Part shown: in pieces, positions 28,753-39,344 of the stretch
Position numbering within the stretch: the stretch's first letter is position 1
Layout: every line of letters begins with the position of its first letter
Origin: Sedimentitalea xiamensis
GTDB lineage: Bacteria > Pseudomonadota > Alphaproteobacteria > Rhodobacterales > Rhodobacteraceae
DNA: 64,000 nucleotides
Direction: 5' to 3'
Assembly (NCBI RefSeq): GCF_030164465.1
Contig: NZ_JASNJE010000001.1
Span: 186,001 to 250,000, forward strand
Notes under the pieces: generated by a model
Seen by the model: the letters and a program-made list of their open reading frames with translations, nothing else
Databases searched by the model: none
What the model was told of the DNA's origin: nothing
Translations under genes and position numbers: made by a program

Positions 28753-29658
28753 TCAGGCCAGAAAGCCGTTTTCCTCGACCAGCGCCAGCAACTGCGCCAG
28801 AGAGGTTTCGACCGTGACACCGGATGTATCCAGCTGCCCGCCGGCCCTTTCATAGAGCGCTTCGCGACTGGTCAGGATCGTTTTCAGCTGTTCCATGGCC
28901 TCCGGATTGCCCGCCATCGGGCGTTCATCGCCCTGCGCCCTGACCCGCGCCATGTGTTCGCTGGGCGATGTCTTCAGCCAGACCGTGTGAAAACGATTCA
29001 GCAACGTCGCATAGGTTTCGGGTTGCTCTACGATGCCACCGGCAACGGCCAGCACCACGGCCTGATGGCCAGACGCCACGAGAGTCACGGCCTGGGCTTC
29101 GAGACTGCGATATCCTTCCTGGCCATAGAGCGCGATGACCTCTTCGACGGCCATGCCGCTCTGCCGTTCTATTTCCTGGTTCAGCTCGACGAAAGGCAGG
29201 CCCAGTGCCTGTCCCAGCAAGGCTCCCAATGTCGATTTCCCGGCGCCGCGCAATCCGACGAGGCAGATGCGATGCGCTTTGGTTTCCATTCCGCTGTCCG
29301 GCGCGAGAAGGCGCAATACCGCCTGGCGGGTGTCGGGACTCGCCGCGCGAAACAGGTCCGCGACCCGCGCGGAATCGCGGACCGACGCGTCATTCGTTGC
29401 GATCAGGCCCTCCACGCTCTGTCCCAGCGCCTCGGCCACGCGATGCAGCAGGCCGATCGAGATGTTGCCTTCGCCCGCTTCGATCTGCGCCAGATACCGC
29501 GGAGAGACGCCGGATCTTTCGGACAGCACCCGCCGCGGAATGCCGTTGTTCTCGCGCGCCTGTCGCACGCGGTCCCCCAGACGACGGATCATCGCGGTTG
29601 CGGTTTCGCCATCTGCCAGCGTGGATTCGTTTTGCATGCTGTTCCCGATATCGGTCAT
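28753..29658 (-). CDS. boxR: BoxR/BzdR-type transcriptional regulator of benzoyl-CoA degradation
   Basis: 301 residues with the distinctive BoxR architecture: an XRE helix-turn-helix at about 28-85 (RRVLSERSGVSPRYLAQIEAGEGNISIGLLHRVAEALG) fused to a shikimate-kinase-like domain from about 130 (ICLVGLRGAGKSTLGALLG as the P-loop, then LPFVELNQEIERQSG and a conserved AVAGGIV). In studied relatives the kinase-like domain binds benzoyl-CoA and relieves repression of the catabolic genes. It is the second-last gene of the box cluster, 124 bp after boxA, and that gap contains two inverted copies of the proposed operator. A Met at residue 8 is an alternative start. Confidence 0.93.
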   Translation of the reverse strand: MTDIGNSMQNESTLADGETATAMIRRLGDRVRQARENNGIPRRVLSERSGVSPRYLAQIEAGEGNISIGLLHRVAEALGQSVEGLIATNDASVRDSARVADLFRAASPDTRQAVLRLLAPDSGMETKAHRICLVGLRGAGKSTLGALLGQALGLPFVELNQEIERQSGMAVEEVIALYGQEGYRSLEAQAVTLVASGHQAVVLAVAGGIVEQPETYATLLNRFHTVWLKTSPSEHMARVRAQGDERPMAGNPEAMEQLKTILTSREALYERAGGQLDTSGVTVETSLAQLLALVEENGFLA

Positions 29659-29678
29659 CTGTCTACCGCATGTGAATG

Positions 29679-29742
29679 ATATTGCATCATCCTAGTGCGG
29701 CCAGCACGCGATCTCAATGCGGCCCGTAGAAACATGCAATAT
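29679..29742. promoter_or_regulatory. putative BoxR operator pair upstream of boxR
   Basis: ATATTGCAT (29679-29687) and its exact reverse complement ATGCAATAT (29734-29742) face each other across 46 bases in the 124 bp gap between boxA and boxR. The inner copy ends 20 bp from the boxR start. Variants of the same motif occur before boxC and before the benzoate-CoA ligase gene. Confidence 0.6.
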
Positions 29743-29782
29743 GATGCGCAAGAATGACCTTCCGGCGGAAGCCTGCCGTCCG

Positions 29783-30979
29783 TCAGTAGGTTTCGACGTG
29801 ATAGCGCCCGTCTTCGCGCATGGCGTCGCGCATCTGCGACCAGACAAGCCCGACACCGCGCGCTATATCGGACAACGCCTCTTCGACGCCTTGTTCCATC
29901 GCTTTCAGTCCGCAGATATAGATATGCCCCTTCGGATCACGTATCAGGGCCGCGACGTTTTCGGCCTCGGTCCGCAACTTGTCCTGAACATACTGCTTCG
30001 GGTGATCCGGTTCGCGGCTGAAGGCAAACACCTTCTTCATGAACCCGTCCGGCACTTTCTTGAGCGGTCCGAAATAGGGCAGTTCCGCCGGACGGCGCGC
30101 GCCGAAGACCAGGACAAGGGATTCTCGCGTCGCCGGCGCCACCCTCTGCCGACGCATGGTGAATCCGCGAAACGGGGCCGACCCCGTCCCGGTGCATATC
30201 ATCAGCAGGCGGGTTTCCGGATCGGACGGCAACAGGAAAGTCGCGCCGAACGGGCCGGTCAGCCTGACGCTGTCGCCCGGTTTCAGATCGCAGACATAGT
30301 TTGAACACAGCCCGTGCTCTTCGCGTTTCACGGTCAGGGACAGGTTGTTGAAGTTCGGCCGCTCGCCATCGCGCGGGCTGGAGACCGAATAGAGCCGGGG
30401 AAGATGCGGCTTTCCCTCGGCATCGGCCCCCGGTGGGATGATACCGACGCTCTGGCCTTCGAGAACCGGAAACGGCAGGCCGCCGAGATCCAGAATGATA
30501 TGACGGACATCGCTGTCGCTGCCGGCATCCGTCAGCCTGTAGTTTCCCTGCACCGTCGCAACCGCAGGCTTTCCGGGATTGTACATGTTGATCGTCGGCC
30601 TGGACGCCGTGGCGGGCGCTTTCGCCTTGCCGCCCGCGCCCCTGTGCGCCTCGGCCAGCAGGGCCGCCATCGCATCGTCCAGCGCTTCCAGCCCCGTTTC
30701 GGCCTCCCCGCCCGCGGAATCGAGATCCTCCTGATCGGGCAGTTCGTCCCACCCGTATTGATCTTCCAGCGAATAGGGATCGATCACGACCCGCCATTCA
30801 TCGATGGACCCTGTCGGGCAGACCGGTATGCAATCCATGCAGAAATCGCATTTGGAGACATCGACGACCACGTTGTTGTCGTCGTGTTCGATGGCCTGCA
30901 GCGGGCAGGTCATTTCGCATGTGTAACAGCGGATACAGATTTCGGGGTCGATAAGGTGCTGTTTCAGCGGTGCGGACAT
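29783..30979 (-). CDS. boxA: benzoyl-CoA 2,3-epoxidase reductase subunit BoxA
   Basis: NADPH-dependent iron-sulfur flavoprotein that passes electrons to BoxB. The 398 residues start with two [4Fe-4S] ferredoxin motifs (CIRCYTCEMTCP near 15; CDFCMDCIPVCP near 45). An acidic linker is followed by a ferredoxin-NADP reductase module: the FAD motif RLYSVSSP near 220, the NADP loop ICTGTGSAPFRG near 295 and the terminal GRYHVETY. Length and order agree with known BoxA. Its ATG shares one base with the stop of the 57-residue gene upstream (TGATG), so it is translationally coupled to it. boxR follows after 124 bp. Confidence 0.95.
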   Translation of the reverse strand: MSAPLKQHLIDPEICIRCYTCEMTCPLQAIEHDDNNVVVDVSKCDFCMDCIPVCPTGSIDEWRVVIDPYSLEDQYGWDELPDQEDLDSAGGEAETGLEALDDAMAALLAEAHRGAGGKAKAPATASRPTINMYNPGKPAVATVQGNYRLTDAGSDSDVRHIILDLGGLPFPVLEGQSVGIIPPGADAEGKPHLPRLYSVSSPRDGERPNFNNLSLTVKREEHGLCSNYVCDLKPGDSVRLTGPFGATFLLPSDPETRLLMICTGTGSAPFRGFTMRRQRVAPATRESLVLVFGARRPAELPYFGPLKKVPDGFMKKVFAFSREPDHPKQYVQDKLRTEAENVAALIRDPKGHIYICGLKAMEQGVEEALSDIARGVGLVWSQMRDAMREDGRYHVETY

Positions 30980-31152
30980 CAGGTTCCGTGTTTCCTGGAC
31001 AGAATCACATCAGGCACGATCAAGGCTTCGATCAGTTCCTTGCACAATCCGTTGCAATCGGTGCACCCGACGCAGGGTCCGTTCAGCTTCGACAGTTCCA
31101 GGGACAGGGCGGCGGTGCGGGGCGCTGCAGCGACGAGACGGCTGATGTTCAT
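30979..31152 (-). CDS. 57-residue Cys-rich protein between boxB and boxA
   Basis: A small protein (MNISRLVAAAPRTAALSLEL, then SKLNG) with the cluster PCVGCTDCNGLCKEL, i.e. C-x2-C-x2-C-x3-C, near residues 27-36, followed by a hydrophobic stretch EALIVPDVIL and a basic tail. The spacing resembles half of a [4Fe-4S] ferredoxin binding loop. I do not recognise a named family. ATG 31152 is chosen over an in-frame ATG at 31170 because it gives a compact N terminus with GGAGCC upstream. Its stop shares a base with the boxA start, and boxB lies 176 bp upstream, so it is in the box operon. A role in electron transfer or metal handling for BoxA/BoxB is inference only. Confidence 0.7.
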   Translation of the reverse strand: MNISRLVAAAPRTAALSLELSKLNGPCVGCTDCNGLCKELIEALIVPDVILSRKHGT

Positions 31153-31328
31153 GAAAAGGCTCCGATACAATATGACAGTGACAAAAAATGAAAAAATGAA
31201 GCACGACGCATGTCGTCCGACTCAAAGGGTATCATGTGCCCCCCAATTCCGGCAAATATTTGTTGACTTCGCGGATCATCTTCGGTCTCGCGCTGTTGTT
31301 TCGGCGGTGAAAGCGGGATCATTCCGGG

Positions 31329-32780
31329 TCAGGCCATGTGCAGTTTCACATACTCGAAATCGCCCGGCTTGTTGTCGATCCCGACCTTGGGGGGCGCGAT
31401 CCAGCTGGCATATTCCCCCGGTTCCGTCACCGGTTTCATCAGGGACTTGATGAAATCGCCATCGGCATGGGTCGGCAGCCAGCCGGGCAGCCCCTTGTCA
31501 TAATCCGCCCCGGACAGGAGATTTCCGTCGGGATCGAAGTTGTGGCCCGCGAACACACCGATCTTGCGGTGGAAGGATTCGTGCGGCAGCTTCATCTCGA
31601 AGTCCACCCCCGCTTTCTGGATCAGCTTGTTCCAGCGCCCGACGCCGCCCGCCGCGTCACGGGTGTAGTCGTCGCGCAGGCGCATGTTGATCGCGGTCAG
31701 GGCCGGAACCTCGTGATACACCATCTTGCCGTCGACCATGTCCCACACCTTGTAGGTGTCGTTCTTGAGCTGGTGATCGTCGTCGATCCTCATTTCCATA
31801 TAACGGCCCTTGATCCCGGAATTGAACGCATTGGCGGCATTGGTCGATACCTCCTGACCGAACAGGTCCAGCGACAGGGTGTAGTGCAGGTTCAGTTTTT
31901 TCTGGATGGTGGGCAGGTCGATGACGCCCAGGTCGCGGACCTTGTCGATATCGTAAGGATCGCTGATCCCGGCCTTGTTCATCGCCTCGACCGTGGCCTG
32001 AATGGTGCGTCCGACGCCGGTTTCGCCGACGAACATGTGATGCGCCTCTTCGGTCAGCATGAACCGGCAGGTCCGGGACAGGGGGTCGAACCCCGACTGC
32101 GCCAGGCTTTCCAACTGCATCTTCCCGTCCCGGTCGGTGAAATAGGTGAACATGAAGAACGACAGCCAGTCCGGCGTTTCCTCGTTGAACGCACCCAGCA
32201 TCCTCGGGGCTTCTTCCGAACCTGACGACCGGATCAGCAATTCGTTCGCCTCTTCCCGCCCGTCGCGGCCAAAATACTTCTGAAGCAGGTAGACCATCGC
32301 CCACAGATGGCGGCCTTCCTCGACATTGACCTGAAAGAGGTTGCGCAAGTCATAAAGCGATGGCGCCGTCAGCCCGAGGAATCGCTGCTGTTCCACCGAT
32401 CCCGGTTCCGTATCCCCCTGAATCACGATCAGGCGCTTGAGCATGTTGCGGTATTCGCCCGGAACCTCCTGCCAGGCCGGTTCGCCCACATGTTCGCCGC
32501 AGGGAATGCGCCGGTCATCGACCTGCGGCGCCAGGAGCACGCCCCACCGGTATTCCGGCATCTTCACGTAGTCGAACTTGGCCCATCCTTTCGGGTCGAC
32601 CGAAACGGCGGTACGCAGGTAGACCATGCTTTCCTGGAAATTCTGCGGGATCAGGTCATTCCACCAGTTGATGTAGCCCGGATGCCATTTTTCCAGCGCC
32701 TTCAGAACCTTCCGGTCCGAACTCAGCCCGACGTTGTTGGGGATCTGGGTGTCGTAGCTGACATTGATGAGGTCAAGCAT
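31329..32780 (-). CDS. boxB: benzoyl-CoA 2,3-epoxidase oxygenase subunit BoxB
   Basis: Di-iron oxygenase that converts benzoyl-CoA to 2,3-epoxybenzoyl-CoA with O2 and electrons from BoxA. The 483 residues start MLDLINVSYDTQIPNNVGL and match BoxB throughout. Two E-x-x-H iron motifs are visible, EGRH near residue 155 and EEAHH near 245, as expected for a class I di-iron site. RBS AGGAGA lies 6 bases before ATG 32780. boxC ends 36 bp upstream; a 176 bp gap then leads to the small Cys-rich gene, long for this operon and without an obvious terminator. Confidence 0.96.
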   Translation of the reverse strand: MLDLINVSYDTQIPNNVGLSSDRKVLKALEKWHPGYINWWNDLIPQNFQESMVYLRTAVSVDPKGWAKFDYVKMPEYRWGVLLAPQVDDRRIPCGEHVGEPAWQEVPGEYRNMLKRLIVIQGDTEPGSVEQQRFLGLTAPSLYDLRNLFQVNVEEGRHLWAMVYLLQKYFGRDGREEANELLIRSSGSEEAPRMLGAFNEETPDWLSFFMFTYFTDRDGKMQLESLAQSGFDPLSRTCRFMLTEEAHHMFVGETGVGRTIQATVEAMNKAGISDPYDIDKVRDLGVIDLPTIQKKLNLHYTLSLDLFGQEVSTNAANAFNSGIKGRYMEMRIDDDHQLKNDTYKVWDMVDGKMVYHEVPALTAINMRLRDDYTRDAAGGVGRWNKLIQKAGVDFEMKLPHESFHRKIGVFAGHNFDPDGNLLSGADYDKGLPGWLPTHADGDFIKSLMKPVTEPGEYASWIAPPKVGIDNKPGDFEYVKLHMA

Positions 32781-32816
32781 GTCTGTCTCCTGTTGGATGC
32801 GGCGGGGGCCGGCCGA

Positions 32817-34478
32817 TCACACGCGTTCCATGTTGTAGGATCCCCGGACGCCGGTGCCATATCGCTGCAGTGCGCCTTCGGCTCCGACCGCGTTCGGGCG
32901 CTGGAATATCCAGTTCTGCCAGGCGGTCAGCCGTCCGAAAATGCGGGTTTCCATCGTTTCCGGACCTGCAAAACGCAGGTTTGCTTCCATCCCGGTCAGG
33001 GCGTCCGGCGAAAAACTGGCGCGTTCCTCCAGGAAAATGCGCACCTCGTCCTCCCAGTCGATGTCGTCGAACGCTTCGGTGATCAGGCCCAGTTCCTCGG
33101 CGGTTTCTGCATCCAGAGATTCGCCGATGCGGCCCTTGAGCGCGGTTTCCTGTTCCGGCGCCCCCAGGAACCGGGTCTGAAGGCGTGTCAGGTCGTTCGC
33201 CATCGGATAGACGCCGAAGTTTGCCGGCGACAGGGTGATCGACGCCAGCGGACGATTGTTGCCTTCGAACTCCTCCAGCATCATGTAGCTGCGGTCTGCG
33301 GCCCAGATGAGTTCGGCCAGCATTCCGGCGTAACAGGATCCGTGTTCCACCAGCGTGACCAGGCTGCGCGAGGTCATGTCGATACGTTTGAGAAGCCGCT
33401 TCCAGTATTGCAGGATCTCGTTCGCCAGCCAGTGTCCCGCGTTGGCGAGCAGGAAAGCCTCATGCGCCAGAACGCGCTCTGCATCGCCCTGGGTCGTGAA
33501 CACGATCAGGCCGGCTTCGCGTTCGTTCAGGCGCAGATGCAGGATCGCGTCGTCCAGTTCCCGCGCCAGCCGCAGCATGTAGGTGTCCGAACCTTCCGCC
33601 AGCAGGGCGCCGGTGTCGCCGGGCGCCGCGCCATCCGGTCCCTTGATCAAGATCGTCGCGCGATTGGCATCCCGATCCAGGTCCACCTCCAGCAGGGAAT
33701 AGACTACCGTTCCGTCCGGATCGATTTTCCGGTCCAATGGCTTCAGCCGGATACCCTGCAAACCCTCGGGCTTGGACGACCGGTTCGCGAATTCCCGGGC
33801 GCGCTCCTGCACCACGTCGTCAAAGGTGGAATTGGCGACGACCTCGTCCACCAGCCCCCAATCCTTGGCGCGCTGCCCGCGGATGCCTTCTTCGATCGAA
33901 CAGAATACATCCGCCCGATCCCGGCGCAGTTTGCGCTTGTCCGTCACCCGCGTCAGCCCGCCGGTGCCGGGCAGGACCGCCAGCAGGGGCACTTCGGGCA
34001 GCGCCACCGAAGACGTGCTGTCGTTGGTCAGCATGATGTAATTGCACGCCACGGCCAGCTCATAGCCCCCGCCGGCGCAAGCGCCTTTTACCGCGGCGAT
34101 GTATTTCTGGCCCGAATCCCGTTCCGCCGCCTCGTAGGTATTGCGGGTTTCGTTGGTGAACTTGCAGAAATTCACCTTGTGCGCATGACTTGCACCGCCC
34201 AGCATCCGAATATTCGCTCCGGCGCAGAACACCTTGTCCTTTCCCGATTGCATCACGACGACGCTGACCTCGGGATGTTCGAACCTCATCCGCTGCACGA
34301 TATCGGCCAGTTCGATATCGACGCCCAGATCGTAGGAATTCAGCTTCAGTTCATACCCGTCGAACAGGCCGCCGGCCTCGTCCACATCCATGAACAGGTT
34401 GGCGACCGCACCGTCATATTCCACGCGCCAGTGGCGGTATCGCGACGGGTCCGTCTGGAAATCGATGACTTTGCTCAT
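32817..34478 (-). CDS. boxC: benzoyl-CoA-dihydrodiol (epoxybenzoyl-CoA) lyase BoxC
   Basis: Crotonase-superfamily enzyme that hydrolytically opens the epoxide ring to 3,4-dehydroadipyl-CoA semialdehyde and formate. The 553 residues contain a first crotonase module with FCAGANIRMLGGASHAHK near 90, GACAGGGYELAVACNYIML near 140 and SVALPEVPLLAVLPGTGGLTR near 170, then a second crotonase-like half. ATG 34478 (MSKVIDFQTDPSRY) is preferred to the upstream ATG 34505 because AAAGGCGG sits just before it. It is the first gene of boxC-boxB-small-boxA-boxR, with a promoter region carrying repeated TTGCA elements. Formate released here could feed the formate dehydrogenase encoded in the same window. Confidence 0.95.
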   Translation of the reverse strand: MSKVIDFQTDPSRYRHWRVEYDGAVANLFMDVDEAGGLFDGYELKLNSYDLGVDIELADIVQRMRFEHPEVSVVVMQSGKDKVFCAGANIRMLGGASHAHKVNFCKFTNETRNTYEAAERDSGQKYIAAVKGACAGGGYELAVACNYIMLTNDSTSSVALPEVPLLAVLPGTGGLTRVTDKRKLRRDRADVFCSIEEGIRGQRAKDWGLVDEVVANSTFDDVVQERAREFANRSSKPEGLQGIRLKPLDRKIDPDGTVVYSLLEVDLDRDANRATILIKGPDGAAPGDTGALLAEGSDTYMLRLARELDDAILHLRLNEREAGLIVFTTQGDAERVLAHEAFLLANAGHWLANEILQYWKRLLKRIDMTSRSLVTLVEHGSCYAGMLAELIWAADRSYMMLEEFEGNNRPLASITLSPANFGVYPMANDLTRLQTRFLGAPEQETALKGRIGESLDAETAEELGLITEAFDDIDWEDEVRIFLEERASFSPDALTGMEANLRFAGPETMETRIFGRLTAWQNWIFQRPNAVGAEGALQRYGTGVRGSYNMERV

Positions 34479-34500
34479 GCGAACCGCCTTTGGGAAAGCC

Positions 34501-34610
34501 TGCATACGTTTTGCATCTTATCTTTCGGAATCGGTTCGGTAAACCCGATATGTGCAAAATATTGCGCTACTTGCAGGCTGATTTGATGGATTGTCTGCAC
34601 TATATTGCAT
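34501..34610 (-). promoter_or_regulatory. boxC promoter region with putative BoxR sites
   Basis: An AT-rich 122 bp gap plus the tail of the upstream gene contain TTGCAT (34511-34516), ATATTGCGC (34559-34567), TTGCAGG (34571-34577) and ATATTGCAT (34602-34610). The last is identical to the copy before boxR and overlaps the stop of the DUF309-like gene. GCAAAATATTGC (34554-34565) is itself palindromic around four bases. Confidence 0.55.
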
Positions 34611-35025
34611 TTTTTCGTAGCGTTTCGATACGACTTTCCAGATCGTCCAGGGGCAAGCCCATCACATCCCGCACGCCGGAACCGCAGGCATGCAGGTGGG
34701 TTTCGGCCATGCCGCAAAGTCTGCGGACGGCATTGGGGCGATTCATCCGCGCCTTGAGCGCCGCGTTGGCCGTCTGAATCAGTGCCTGCACGGCATGGCG
34801 TTCGACGGAATTGGGGGCCGTGGCCATCCAGACCGGTTCCAATGCCTCGTGCGCTTCCCAATAGAAACCGTGTTCGAAGAACGCCCGGCCTGCCCGCCAC
34901 GCCGCGCTGTTCGCGATCTCGGCGCCGGTCATGCCCACGCGGACGGAGTCATGCAGATCGTCGAACAGGGATGGATCGTGTCGCGGCGTCTGGCCGGGGA
35001 CATAGGCATGGGGCGGCAGGTTCAC
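34600..35025 (-). CDS. DUF309-like protein of unknown function
   Basis: 141 residues. The segment RAFFEHGFYWEAHEALEPVWM near 60-80 matches the hallmark helix of DUF309-type proteins (H/F-YWEAHE-LEPVW), whose Glu/His residues suggest a metal or active site, although no member has a settled function that I know of. The following helical region (VERHAVQALIQTANAALKARM) also fits that fold. The start is GTG 35025, which overlaps the stop of the alpha/beta hydrolase (GTGA). It is the last gene before the boxC promoter, inside the benzoate ligase operon. Why it belongs there is unknown. Confidence 0.7.
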   Translation of the reverse strand: MNLPPHAYVPGQTPRHDPSLFDDLHDSVRVGMTGAEIANSAAWRAGRAFFEHGFYWEAHEALEPVWMATAPNSVERHAVQALIQTANAALKARMNRPNAVRRLCGMAETHLHACGSGVRDVMGLPLDDLESRIETLRKNAI

Positions 35026-35852
35026 CCCACCAGACCCGGCTGAACATCGACGGCTTCGATACGTTGCAGACGTCTGGCAAAGTCTTCGACTGCCGCGAGA
35101 ACCCGGTCCGGCTGTTCCTGATGCGGCGCGTGCTTGCAGCCGTCCAGGATCAGCGTATCGACGGGGGAATAGGCGCGGTCTTCGATCTCGGAAATCTGCG
35201 CCAGCGTTCCATACTGGTCGTCGCGCCCCTGAATCGCCAGAACCGGTATGCGGAAATAGTCGATGGTGTCGGCCACATTCCAGTCCACGAAAGACGGGTC
35301 GAGCCAGGTTTCGGCCCAACCTCGAAATGCGCCATCCACATCCTTGTGATAGCGCGCCAACCGACGCCTCAGCACACCGGACTCATAGGCCTGCGCCGCC
35401 TTTGCGATCTGGGCAAGTCCGGACGGTTCGGTAAAGAAATGCGGCGCCATGAGGATCAATCCACGGATACGGTGGTCCGCGACACCACCCGCGTAAAGCG
35501 CCGCGATCGTCGCCCCGTCGCTGTGACCGAACAGGATACCCTTAGAAAAACCTATCTGATCCAGAATGCCCGGCAGAACGTCGCGGGCTTCTCGCGTCAT
35601 GAAATCAAGCGGTCGTGGCAGCGGAACCGGATCGGAAGCGCCATACCCCTGACGCGAATAGGCGAAGACGCCCATACCGGTCCGTGCCGCGACCTGTTCG
35701 GGAAAATCCCGCCACAATTCGACGCTGCCCAGACCTTCGTGCAGCATGACGATGGTGGGCGAGCTGTCCGGCGAAGGCCCGTGGCAGGCATATTCCAGCG
35801 TCACGCCATTCACGACCAAAGCAGACCGTGGCGTCGATGACCAGTCCAGCAT
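35022..35852 (-). CDS. alpha/beta-fold hydrolase of the benzoyl-CoA cluster
   Basis: 276 residues with a complete triad: the nucleophile elbow GHSDGAT near residue 118, an aspartate in QGRDDQYG near 222, and histidine in GCKHAPHQEQP near 250. The oxyanion region is LHEGLGSVELWRDFP near 38. No signal peptide, so it is cytoplasmic. Position directly after the benzoate-CoA ligase gene (2 bp gap) and before the DUF309-like gene suggests a role in aromatic acid breakdown, for example hydrolysing a stray CoA thioester or a lactone/enol intermediate. Substrate is not predictable from sequence. Confidence 0.82.
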   Translation of the reverse strand: MLDWSSTPRSALVVNGVTLEYACHGPSPDSSPTIVMLHEGLGSVELWRDFPEQVAARTGMGVFAYSRQGYGASDPVPLPRPLDFMTREARDVLPGILDQIGFSKGILFGHSDGATIAALYAGGVADHRIRGLILMAPHFFTEPSGLAQIAKAAQAYESGVLRRRLARYHKDVDGAFRGWAETWLDPSFVDWNVADTIDYFRIPVLAIQGRDDQYGTLAQISEIEDRAYSPVDTLILDGCKHAPHQEQPDRVLAAVEDFARRLQRIEAVDVQPGLVG

Positions 35853-35854
35853 CG

Positions 35855-37396
35855 TCAGGACTCCTCACGCAGCTTGAATCGCTGAATCTTGCCTGTCGCG
35901 GTTTTCGGCAGGTCGCTCACGAATTCGATCCAGCGCGGATATTTCCATTTTCCGACCTTCTTCTTGACGAAGTCTTTCAGTTCGTCAGCCAGACCTTCCG
36001 CACCCTGATCCTGTTTCAAGACAATGAACGCCTTGGGCTTTTCCAGGCCGTCACGGTCGCGCCGCGCAACCACAGCCGCTTCCAGCACCGCCGGATGCCC
36101 GACCAGGGCCTGTTCCACTTCAAAGGGCGACACCCAGATACCCGATACCTTGAACATGTCATCCGTGCGCCCGCAATAGATGTATCGCCCTTCCGGGGTG
36201 CGTTCGTATTTGTCGCCGGTCCGGGTCCATTCGCCTTCGAAGGTCGCGCGGGACTTGGTTCGCTTGTTCCAGTAGCCATCCGCGGCCGAGGCGCCCCGAA
36301 CCAGGAGTTCTCCGATCTGGCCCGGACCCACATCATCGCCACGCTCGTCCACGAGACGGACATCATAGCCGGGAACCGCGCGCCCGGACGTGCCGTAGAC
36401 CACGTCGTCCGGTGCATTCGACAGGAAAATGTGCAGCATCTCGGTGGACCCGACGCCATCCAGGATATCGACCCCCCATATGTCGCGCCATTTGCGGCCG
36501 ATGTCTTCCGGCAGGGCCTCGCCGGCGGAAATGCAGCGCCGCAGCGGAACATCCGGCCGTCCCGCGCGTTCAAGATGGGCCACGGTCGCGGCATAAAGTG
36601 TCGGAACGCCACAGAAGATCGTTGGCTGTTCGGCGGCGAGAATGTCTACCGTCCTGTCTGGTGTCGGACGACCGTCAAACAGGATCGCCGTCGCCCCGAC
36701 GGACATCGGAAAAGTCATCGCATTGCCGAGCCCGTAGGCGAAAAACAGTTTGGCCGCCGAATAGACCACATCGGCCTCTTCGATCCCCAGGACCTGCCTG
36801 CCATAGGTGTCAGATGTCGCCTTCAGGCTGCCATGAACGTGGCGGACGCCTTTAGGCTGCCCGGTCGATCCCGAGGAATAGAGCCAGAAGGCGGTATCGT
36901 CGAGCGACGTTTCAACCGCCGCCACAGGCCCGCAACCCTGCATGAAATCGCCAAGGGTCTGCGTTCCATCCGGCGCGGTGTCGCCGATAACGATGATCCT
37001 GTCGAGGTAGGCGGACGATTCCGCCGCGGCCCGGATTTCGGGCCAGAGACTTTCGGACACGAACAGGCAGGATGCCCGGCTGTCCTTCAGAATGGCGTCA
37101 TATACGGACCCGGTCAGCAAGGTATTGACCGGAACCGGGATGACGCCGGCCTTGATGCAGCCCCAGAAGACCGCGGGGAATTCGAGCTGGTCGAGCATCA
37201 GCATCAAGGCACGCGCCTCGCGCGGGACACCGGCGCGTTGCAGCGCCGCGGCGACGCAACCGGACTGCTCGGCCAGTTCTCCATAGGTAATCGCGCGTCG
37301 CTGACCGGCGGCCTCTCGAAATGCCGGTTTTGCGCCGCGCCCCTCGGCAACATGCCGATCCACGAAGAACTGCGCTGCGTTGCCCGTTGCTGTCAT
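35855..37396 (-). CDS. bclA: benzoate-CoA ligase
   Basis: Activates benzoate with ATP and CoA to benzoyl-CoA, the entry step of the box pathway. The 513 residues have the adenylation core: P-loop LYSSGSTGQPKGVRHVH near 165, DGVGSTEMLHIFLSN near 310, TGDKYERTPEGRYIYCGRTDDMFKVSGIWVSPFEVE over 385-420 (given in parts), and the catalytic lysine in PKTATGKIQRFKL at the C terminus. The motif set is that of benzoate-type rather than fatty-acid ligases. ATG 37396 follows a GGGGGG/GTGAC purine-rich site; 28 upstream codons in frame are probably untranslated. It heads a ligase-hydrolase-DUF309 operon with its own motif-bearing promoter. Confidence 0.92.
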   Translation of the reverse strand: MTATGNAAQFFVDRHVAEGRGAKPAFREAAGQRRAITYGELAEQSGCVAAALQRAGVPREARALMLMLDQLEFPAVFWGCIKAGVIPVPVNTLLTGSVYDAILKDSRASCLFVSESLWPEIRAAAESSAYLDRIIVIGDTAPDGTQTLGDFMQGCGPVAAVETSLDDTAFWLYSSGSTGQPKGVRHVHGSLKATSDTYGRQVLGIEEADVVYSAAKLFFAYGLGNAMTFPMSVGATAILFDGRPTPDRTVDILAAEQPTIFCGVPTLYAATVAHLERAGRPDVPLRRCISAGEALPEDIGRKWRDIWGVDILDGVGSTEMLHIFLSNAPDDVVYGTSGRAVPGYDVRLVDERGDDVGPGQIGELLVRGASAADGYWNKRTKSRATFEGEWTRTGDKYERTPEGRYIYCGRTDDMFKVSGIWVSPFEVEQALVGHPAVLEAAVVARRDRDGLEKPKAFIVLKQDQGAEGLADELKDFVKKKVGKWKYPRWIEFVSDLPKTATGKIQRFKLREES

Positions 37397-37478
37397 GTCA
37401 CCCCCCCGATCCCAGTGGAAACACCCCCAGGAAGCCCGAACAGAGCCGATGCGGCCGCGATCACCCGGACATGGGTTC

Positions 37479-37528
37479 ATAATGCATCCATTCCGGGATC
37501 ATGCAACATACTGCCGCCATGTTGCGAT
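37479..37528 (-). promoter_or_regulatory. putative BoxR operator region upstream of benzoate-CoA ligase
   Basis: ATAATGCAT (37479-37487), then the inverted pair ATGCAACAT (37501-37509) and ATGTTGCGAT (37519-37528) separated by 9 bases. The words are variants of the ATGCAATAT / ATATTGCAT motif seen before boxR and boxC. The region is 80-130 bp upstream of the ligase ATG. Confidence 0.55.
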
Positions 37529-37535
37529 ATAATGC

Positions 37536-39344
37536 CTAGCCGATCCTGATAACGCCCCGATCATCGGATGTGTAAAGCCGGTCGACCAGGGATTTGCGCA
37601 GGTTCAGCACCTTGGCGAAATTCAGGTTTCCCTTGGCGGTGATTTCACCATCCGCCATGGACGGCGGGTCGGACAGAATCAGCGCCCGACAGATCCGGTC
37701 GGACGACCCCCTTGCCGGATCGGACAGAACCGCGAGCCGTCTGGCAATTTCGGACTGAACCGGCGGGCAAAGGCAGGCGCCGTCTTTCACCGTCAGCGCG
37801 GCGTCCGACAGGACGGCTTGGGACGGCAGGATCAGCAACCCGATCTCATCCCGCCCTTCGCCTGTCACCACGACATCCGACGCCAGGGGAGCAAGCATGG
37901 CTAGAACTTCGAGCCTCAAGCCCGCCGCGCGCACCCAGATACCGGTCGCGAGCTTGAAATCCTCGGACATTCTCCCGTCAAATCGCAGGCCGCGAGAGGG
38001 AACGCCCGTATCCACGAAAGTCATCGCATCGCCGGTCTTGAAGAACCCTTCGTCGTCAAAGGACTCCGCCGTGCGTTCGGGATCTCCAAAATATCCCGGC
38101 GTCACGTTGGGGCCTTTGATCCGCACCTCGTAGCGCGGCAAATCCTCGGGCACGAGCTTTGCGACGACGCCGGGCAAAGGCACGCCAAGAATGCCGGGGC
38201 TCGGCGCAGGTTCATGTTGAAAGATGCAGGCCGGGGCGGTTTCGGTCAGGCCCCAGCAGGTCGTGACCAAGGGCGGCTGACCCCGGACATCCGTAGCCAT
38301 CGCGATCAGGTCGTCCCAGACATCGCGGGGCAGCGACGCCCCGGCGTAGAACAGCATGTCGAGATCCTTGAAATAGGTCCGGCGCAGGGCATCGTTGCCC
38401 CGCATCTCGTCCCGAAGCAGGGCGAACCCGGCGGGGACATTGTAGGCGATCGTACCATTCATCAGGAGATTGTTTTCGAAGGTTTTAGCAATCAGCGCTT
38501 TCACCGGCTTGCCGCCGTCGATGTAGAGGCTGCCGCCGTTGGCCAGCATCTGGTTGAAATTGTTCGACCCGCCAAACACGTGGTTCCACGGCAGCCAGTC
38601 CACCAGCCTCGGCGGGCGGTCGCGCAGGAACGGCAGGGCCCGCTCGTATTGCGCCTGGTTGGCGCACATCATCCGGTGCGTCGTCAGAACGCCCTTGGGC
38701 CTGGCGGTCGATCCGGAGGTCATCAGGATCTTGACCACAGATTCCGGCCCCACGGACAGGGCCGCCGCATCCACGTCGGACACGCCGCCGCGCAGCAGAT
38801 CCTGAAACGCCGTCTGGCCCGGACCGGCTTTGCCGCTGACCACGGCGTCGATGCCCGCCAGGCTGTCGATTGCGAGTCCCTCCGCAAATCGCGCGCCGTC
38901 CTCGGCATAGACGAGCTGCGGCCCGATCAGGTCAACGATATGCGCCAGCTGTTTCTGCGCTCCGGGGATCAGCGAATATTGCTCGGCCACCGGAACCGTC
39001 GGGATACCGACCCAATGCGCCGCCAGCGAAAGGACGCCATGATCGATCCCGTTGCCGGACAGGATCAGGATCGGAGTGTCGGACGAAAGACCCCGGTCCA
39101 GCAGGGCCGCGGCGACGGCACGCACCTGCTGCAAGGCCGCGCGATAACGCAGTTCGCGCCACCCCGGCCCGCTGCGTTCCGCCAGAAAGACCGTGTCAGG
39201 CCGTTCGGCCGCCCACCTGCGCAGCCAATCGGCAGATGTCCGGACCGGTTCCGGCAGAGGAAAGGGCGAGTGCAGCAGGATCGTTCCGTCCGGTCTGTCT
39301 TCGCGCTCCACCCGGTTGGTGCTGTATCTGGCGTGCGTCGACAT
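37536..39344 (-). CDS. feruloyl-CoA synthetase-like acyl-CoA ligase
   Basis: 602 residues of the ANL superfamily. The P-loop-like KILMTSGSTARPKGVLTTH is near residue 205, the aryl/acyl pocket region WLPWNHVFGGSNNFNQML near 245, TCWGLTETAPACIFQHEP near 350, and the C-terminal AKGNLNFAKVLNLRKSLVDRLY replaces the usual GK motif. This set resembles bacterial feruloyl/coumaroyl-CoA synthetases of about 600 residues. It would activate a hydroxycinnamate or other aryl acid. It follows the TRAP genes by 18 bp in the same direction, so the transporter and this ligase probably act on the same compound. The exact substrate is inference. Confidence 0.82.
   Translation of the reverse strand: MSTHARYSTNRVEREDRPDGTILLHSPFPLPEPVRTSADWLRRWAAERPDTVFLAERSGPGWRELRYRAALQQVRAVAAALLDRGLSSDTPILILSGNGIDHGVLSLAAHWVGIPTVPVAEQYSLIPGAQKQLAHIVDLIGPQLVYAEDGARFAEGLAIDSLAGIDAVVSGKAGPGQTAFQDLLRGGVSDVDAAALSVGPESVVKILMTSGSTARPKGVLTTHRMMCANQAQYERALPFLRDRPPRLVDWLPWNHVFGGSNNFNQMLANGGSLYIDGGKPVKALIAKTFENNLLMNGTIAYNVPAGFALLRDEMRGNDALRRTYFKDLDMLFYAGASLPRDVWDDLIAMATDVRGQPPLVTTCWGLTETAPACIFQHEPAPSPGILGVPLPGVVAKLVPEDLPRYEVRIKGPNVTPGYFGDPERTAESFDDEGFFKTGDAMTFVDTGVPSRGLRFDGRMSEDFKLATGIWVRAAGLRLEVLAMLAPLASDVVVTGEGRDEIGLLILPSQAVLSDAALTVKDGACLCPPVQSEIARRLAVLSDPARGSSDRICRALILSDPPSMADGEITAKGNLNFAKVLNLRKSLVDRLYTSDDRGVIRIG

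Follow-up and report, generated by a model that had tools for sequence, protein, structure and literature searches.

The closest described counterparts of the locus considered here are found in Betaproteobacteria, in which the BoxR/BzdR operator is a TGCA-N6-TGCA palindrome with the consensus ATGCACTATAGTGCAT, present in several copies, which are often separated by several turns of DNA, at boxR, boxCBA and the benzoate-CoA ligase gene (PMC6449761). At the Azoarcus promoter PN, the operators OR1-OR3 combine N6 palindromes upstream with a TGCA(N15)TGCA element close to the core of the promoter, in OR1, and BzdR occupies PN as four dimers, with the DNA looped (PMC6678401). Benzoyl-CoA has been reported as the inducer in Azoarcus (PMC6678401, PMC4424350). 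For Rhodobacteraceae, a literature search with mostly open-access coverage found no description of BoxR sites, and the term BoxR does not occur in PMC12442348, on Roseobacter-type bacteria. We address here a 64,000-nucleotide stretch of the genome of Sedimentitalea xiamensis (contig NZ_JASNJE010000001.1, positions 186,001 to 250,000; hereafter the window), in which boxR is clustered with boxC, boxB, boxA and a ligase gene. Short words found before these genes are very probably parts of six BoxR operators of the TGCA-N6-TGCA type, paired at three tandem promoters, which BoxR would repress until released by benzoyl-CoA.

The original prediction had proposed the 9-mer ATGCAATAT as the BoxR operator motif, with copies or close variants at seven places ahead of three genes, boxR, boxC and the ligase gene. 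All these words were found where it put them, the three exact copies of the window lying at 29679, 29734 and 34602, and the seven places do precede the three genes provided that the ligase gene starts, as seems probable, at 37396. Copies with at most one mismatch number 12 in the window, versus 5.47 (standard deviation 2.25) expected, a count reached in none of 100 shuffles. Judged by its sequence, the 9-mer covers only part of a palindrome of 14-16 bp, TGCA-N6-TGCA, which is the published BoxR/BzdR operator; the listed places are parts of such palindromes, except for 37479-37487, which is a half-site. The premise that BoxR/BzdR proteins of other bacteria use TGCA-containing sites agrees with the published consensus ATGCACTATAGTGCAT (PMC6449761).

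Six TGCA-N6-TGCA-like palindromes are present in the window, one pair upstream of each of boxR, boxC and the ligase gene, with 0, 1, 1, 1, 1 and 2 mismatches in their TGCA halves. They were scored with a symmetric main matrix, built from 366 distinct sites of relatives, window excluded, and with an outgroup matrix derived from 17 loci (L141-L157) of more distant genomes, whose consensus ACATGCACTATAGTGCATGT includes ATGCACTATAGTGCAT. The relatives are 80 related loci taken from genome records, a few of them from Alphaproteobacteria outside Rhodobacteraceae; most are Rhodobacteraceae by title, or by genera that we take to belong there. A plasmid search gave ten records under 60 percent identity, which were not used further. 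Counts made with the main matrix in the relatives that supplied its sites are circular, and the outgroup matrix, a spacer test and shuffles serve as independent checks on them. The predicted elements are the following (scores from the main matrix).

29673-29686, minus strand: predicted BoxR operator R2, TGCAATATCATTCA as read on that strand, 2 bp past the presumed boxR -10; score 20.7, the third highest in the window; rank 3 with the outgroup matrix; position common to relatives.
29735-29748, no strand assigned: predicted BoxR operator R1, TGCAATATGATGCG, centre 62 bp from R2; score 19.7; outgroup rank 2.
34553-34566, no strand assigned: predicted BoxR operator C1, TGCAAAATATTGCG; score 21.6; outgroup rank 4.
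34596-34609, no strand assigned: predicted BoxR operator C2, TGCACTATATTGCA, centre 43 bp from C1, overlapping the end of the DUF309 gene; score 22.75, best of the window; 14/16 to the published consensus, top of 63985 positions.
37479-37487, minus strand: half-site TGCATTAT at the presumed ligase -10, forming TGCA-N15-TGCA with the TGCA at 37502-37505.
37502-37515, no strand assigned: predicted BoxR operator B1, TGCAACATACTGCC, over the presumed -35; score 11.1, sixth in the window; outgroup rank 5.
37523-37536, no strand assigned: predicted BoxR operator B2, TGCGATATAATGCC, spaced 21 bp from B1 (centre to centre) and sharing one base with the stop codon of the preceding synthetase gene; score 15.5; outgroup rank 10 only.

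With the main matrix, these six sites are the top six of the 64 kb (11.1-22.8), the best other place reaching 9.0, and the three promoters contain six sites scoring at least 11, whereas 2000 shuffles gave 0.087 on average and never more than 2. With the outgroup matrix, the five best places are box sites (13.4-22.5), the next one scores 8.7 and the sixth box site comes tenth at 7.9. The published consensus alone is less selective, since C2 (14/16) is followed by four box sites at 11 and by one place outside the box sites with the same score.

The same motif was recovered in the relatives from word counts and from an expectation-maximization search seeded with the commonest words. When pairs of TGCA words were tested at every gap of 0 to 20, the peak shared by the three promoters was a gap of 6 (at most one mismatch), found before 63/76 boxR, 64/64 boxC and 47/60 ligase genes (four of the 80 boxR loci were dropped because their upstream sequence was too short or the match started late), versus 1/64 boxB, 1/66 boxA, 3/56 hydrolase and 2/41 DUF309 genes. 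Upstream sites were detected by the main matrix in 62/76 boxR, 64/64 boxC and 47/60 ligase regions, by the outgroup matrix in 58/76, 64/64 and 45/60, and by neither in the 227 control regions. In total, 91, 166 and 97 sites were observed before boxR, boxC and the ligase gene, respectively, versus shuffled means of 0.7, 1.6 and 0.4 (two of the 64 boxC regions, which contain non-ACGT letters, were excluded from the shuffles). Over the 80 loci, the site density is 5.7 per kb in the three promoters versus 0.044 elsewhere, a 130-fold difference. The loci examined thus show the conservation that the original prediction expected before these three genes, and the motif is far from equally dense elsewhere. 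The part that did not stand is the 9-mer itself, which was rejected as the functional unit because it is exact in just 14 of 200 promoter regions of the relatives (6/76 boxR, 5/64 boxC and 3/60 ligase; 0/227 controls). At the ligase gene, the spacer test gives a second peak, a TGCA spacer of 15, exact in 32 of 60 relatives; the N15 pair is present in 33 ligase regions, window included. Ten of the 13 ligase regions devoid of a near site have sites 435-632 bp upstream. In several loci, such far-upstream sites stand directly before a further open reading frame (ORF); a fragment of one of these ORFs shows a weak resemblance to PnbB (E 0.038, below cut-off). In one locus (L045, 15807-15840), three overlapping sites follow each other in a row, with TGCA every 10 bp and scores of 19.9, 24.9 and 28.6.

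The position of the sites relative to presumed core promoters differs among the three genes. Two such promoters can be proposed.

29689-29717, minus strand: presumed boxR core promoter TTGAGA-N17-TAGGAT, from a consensus scan and the arrangement in relatives.
34515-34543, minus strand: presumed boxC core promoter TTTACC-N17-TAAGAT; a TGCA word stands at the -10.

The consensus scan alone gave two matches in 8.1 kb, which is not above shuffles (2.3); one of them is the boxR element. Of the 70 boxR regions with a site scoring 11 or more, the window among them, 39 have a TTGnnn-N17-TAnnnT element whose end lies 1-3 bp ahead of the operator; another offset was seen once. The boxR operator therefore probably covers the start site, and this position fits autorepression. 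For boxC, TTTAC occurs 40-130 bp upstream in 40 of 65 regions, window included, and their consensus shows a TAA.gTgcA-like -10; the scan picks a different candidate, at 34599-34628, with its -10 inside C2. The presumed boxC -35 is preceded by both full operators, which are located about 50 and 95 bp upstream of the presumed start. At the ligase gene, TGCA words, with a spacer of 15, stand in the presumed -35 and -10. The centres of paired sites in the window are 62, 43 and 21 bp apart, and the site-to-site distances in relatives have their best period, among periods of 8 to 14, at 10.5-10.6 bp. In a test on the 67 distinct distances, which are drawn from related sequences, none of 10000 random sets scored as high (boxR alone, 0.028).

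By analogy with BzdR and BoxR of Azoarcus, dimers of BoxR would occupy these palindromes cooperatively, on one DNA face, and would impede RNA polymerase. The benzoyl-CoA that the ligase produces would then release BoxR, so that the pathway and its own regulator would be induced together, probably from three transcription units, ligase-hydrolase-DUF309, boxCBA and boxR. As BzdR occupies PN as four dimers with looped DNA (PMC6678401), a phased, cooperative BoxR complex is plausible here. A more ambitious proposal, which we consider possible but doubtful, is that in Rhodobacteraceae each of the three tandem promoters is kept by BoxR in a phased nucleoprotein complex that wraps along one DNA face. 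Operator pairs would serve the ligase gene, boxCBA and boxR, as well as a TRAP transporter operon in some members. The threshold would in that case be set by autorepression at the boxR start site, and complexes might bridge promoters. BoxR-type sites precede TRAP transporter genes in five of the six loci with upstream sequence (L062, L082, L091, L054 and L107; not L072), and in L054 and L107 they lie about 1.1 kb further upstream. The TRAP operon of the window shows no main-matrix score above 0.4 within 400 bp upstream, and its control by BoxR was rejected for lack of a site there.

The association between sites and boxR can be considered at the level of genomes. The boxB gene was found in 82 of 394 genomes of the family; boxR was searched for in 58 of these 82 and is present in 56, and the other 24 also have boxR (the genome of the window, 19 relatives, G435, G469, G475 and G319). 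One of the two boxB genomes in which boxR was not detected is represented by a contig (L186) that ends inside boxC, and the other (G549, contig L187) is informative for the boxC promoter alone. This contig carries part of the ligase gene, hydrolase, DUF309, boxC and boxB, with no site scoring above 2.9, and may thus lend weak support to a tie between operators and BoxR.

Several observations weigh against repression by BoxR at the three promoters. The L187 case is limited by a ligase promoter lying outside the contig, by a contig end within boxB and by an uncertain absence of boxR in a genome of 870 contigs. Fourteen of the 76 boxR regions lack a site at score 13; among nine boxR genes without box neighbours, a site was found in six and none at score 13 in three; and no site was found in the upstream sequence examined for 3 of 60 ligase regions, which covers only about 315 bp in one of them. 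In the window, the sites at the ligase gene score low (11.1 and 15.5, one falling to outgroup rank 10), and promoter occlusion is less obvious at boxC because the full operators lie upstream of the presumed -35. Finally, what carries the reading, namely the protein family, the site positions, their conservation and helical phasing, and the boxR site directly after a -10-like box, is read from sequence.

It is unlikely that the palindromes are instead bound by another regulator, either a BenR/XylS-type activator or a general factor. The sites of BenR/XylS, TGCA-N6-GGNTA (PMC6449761, PMC6678401), share with those described here a TGCA first half and a 6-base spacer, and these proteins are activators of another family; the second half GGNTA is absent here, since TGCA-N6-GGNTA does not occur in the window and the six sites have at most two of its four defined bases. 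An argument for such a regulator comes from similar sites elsewhere in the genome, which was covered by the matrix on the window and nine further stretches (L180-L185, L188-L190) and by three whole-genome pattern searches. Exact TGCAATATNNTGC has only two copies in the 4.75 Mb, at boxR and boxC; TGCANTATNNTGCA, allowing one mismatch, gives 20 distinct places, of which 5 fall inside the 7.8 kb of the box region. Away from box genes, the scores among the matches listed are 18.5 (C10:73046), 17.4 (C11:282212), 15.6 (C55) and 14.3 (C35), and they also count against BoxR repression as proposed because they are above or near those of the ligase sites. At C10:73046 (L188, 7047-7123), the 18.5 site is accompanied, 63 bp away, by a second one scoring 11.8, and is flanked by a weakly matching urea-transporter-binding-protein-like gene followed by a UrtB/LivH-like permease gene, and by a divergent gene for a RamB-like regulator (none of these matches reaches its family cut-off); these sites may be a further BoxR target or the RamB-like regulator's own site. 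Across the 80 loci, however, the sites go with boxR and the box genes, and they fit the BoxR/BzdR consensus in the outgroup loci too.

Explanations without any regulator fare worse. The TGCA words could mainly be pieces of -35 and -10 boxes, as TGCA is found inside TTGCAT and before CATTAT at the ligase gene and follows the presumed -10 at boxC; the full palindromes upstream of the presumed boxC start and the 10.5-bp phasing make this very improbable. Chance, that is AT-rich promoter stretches of a GC-rich genome yielding similar words, could account for the relaxed copies of the 9-mer elsewhere in the window, but shuffles of the same promoters yield almost no sites, the top six matches of the 64 kb are all at box promoters and the sites are conserved in relatives, so that it deserves hardly any credence. 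Operators for BoxR therefore remain the preferred reading.

The genes served form a run of seven genes and a small ORF, all in tandem on the minus strand, in the order benzoate-CoA ligase, hydrolase, DUF309 protein, boxC, boxB, small ORF, boxA and boxR. The family models for the following five genes all score over their cut-offs.

28753-29658, minus strand: boxR, NCBIfam NF006015, 363.5 bits (cut-off 204).
29783-30979, minus strand: boxA, TIGR03224, 532.8 bits.
31329-32780, minus strand: boxB, TIGR03225, 900.4 bits.
32817-34478, minus strand: boxC, TIGR03222, 932.7 bits; probable start 34478 (34505 in the ORF list).
35855-37396, minus strand: benzoate-CoA ligase gene, TIGR02262, 728.8 bits; probable start 37396 (37480 in the ORF list).

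The two genes between ligase and boxC match a hydrolase fold and DUF309 in Pfam. BoxR combines an N-terminal XRE-type helix-turn-helix (HTH_3, 44.8 bits) with a C-terminal shikimate-kinase-like domain (SKI, 117.6 bits), both over the Pfam cut-offs, and boxR has box neighbours in most of the 80 relatives as well. The helix-turn-helix region is near-constant in the 14 listed of 68 box-linked relatives and differs moderately in outgroups. Four further loci (L158, L159, L160 and L174) carry BoxR-family genes; box genes were not detected there, and the stretches examined contain no site reaching score 13. Between boxB and boxA, a 57-residue ORF with a CxxCxxCxxxC motif (30979-31152, minus strand) is found; such an ORF occurs in 58 of 65 boxB-boxA gaps, window included. 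A Pfam search with two examples gave no match, and the product might be a small protein that partners the epoxidase and binds an iron-sulfur cluster or a metal.

On this sequence evidence, the locus would represent a known BoxR operator in a lineage for which no description was found, a well-supported and largely expected extension that should be a small surprise for specialists. It provides an operator model with exact sites for the control of benzoate genes in a group where the literature search found none, and the BoxR regulon of Rhodobacteraceae becomes predictable from sequence. The operator model that the original prediction offered for this lineage is thus supported, as an extension of a motif already published for Betaproteobacteria (PMC6449761). 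The pairing of BoxR with its operator appears to be common to Alpha- and Betaproteobacteria despite rearranged gene order. The TGCA-N6-TGCA palindrome, the multiplicity of sites and the genes served (boxR, boxCBA and ligase) are the same, whereas the betaproteobacterial clusters are divergent and the genes described here are in tandem on one strand; the operator centre shows a weak preference for TTATAA, versus CTATAG in the betaproteobacterial consensus. The ligase promoter shares with Azoarcus PN an N15 TGCA pair, but the N15 element of PN sits downstream of the start site (PMC6678401), and PN, the promoter of the anaerobic bzd operon, also has an FNR-type activator site.

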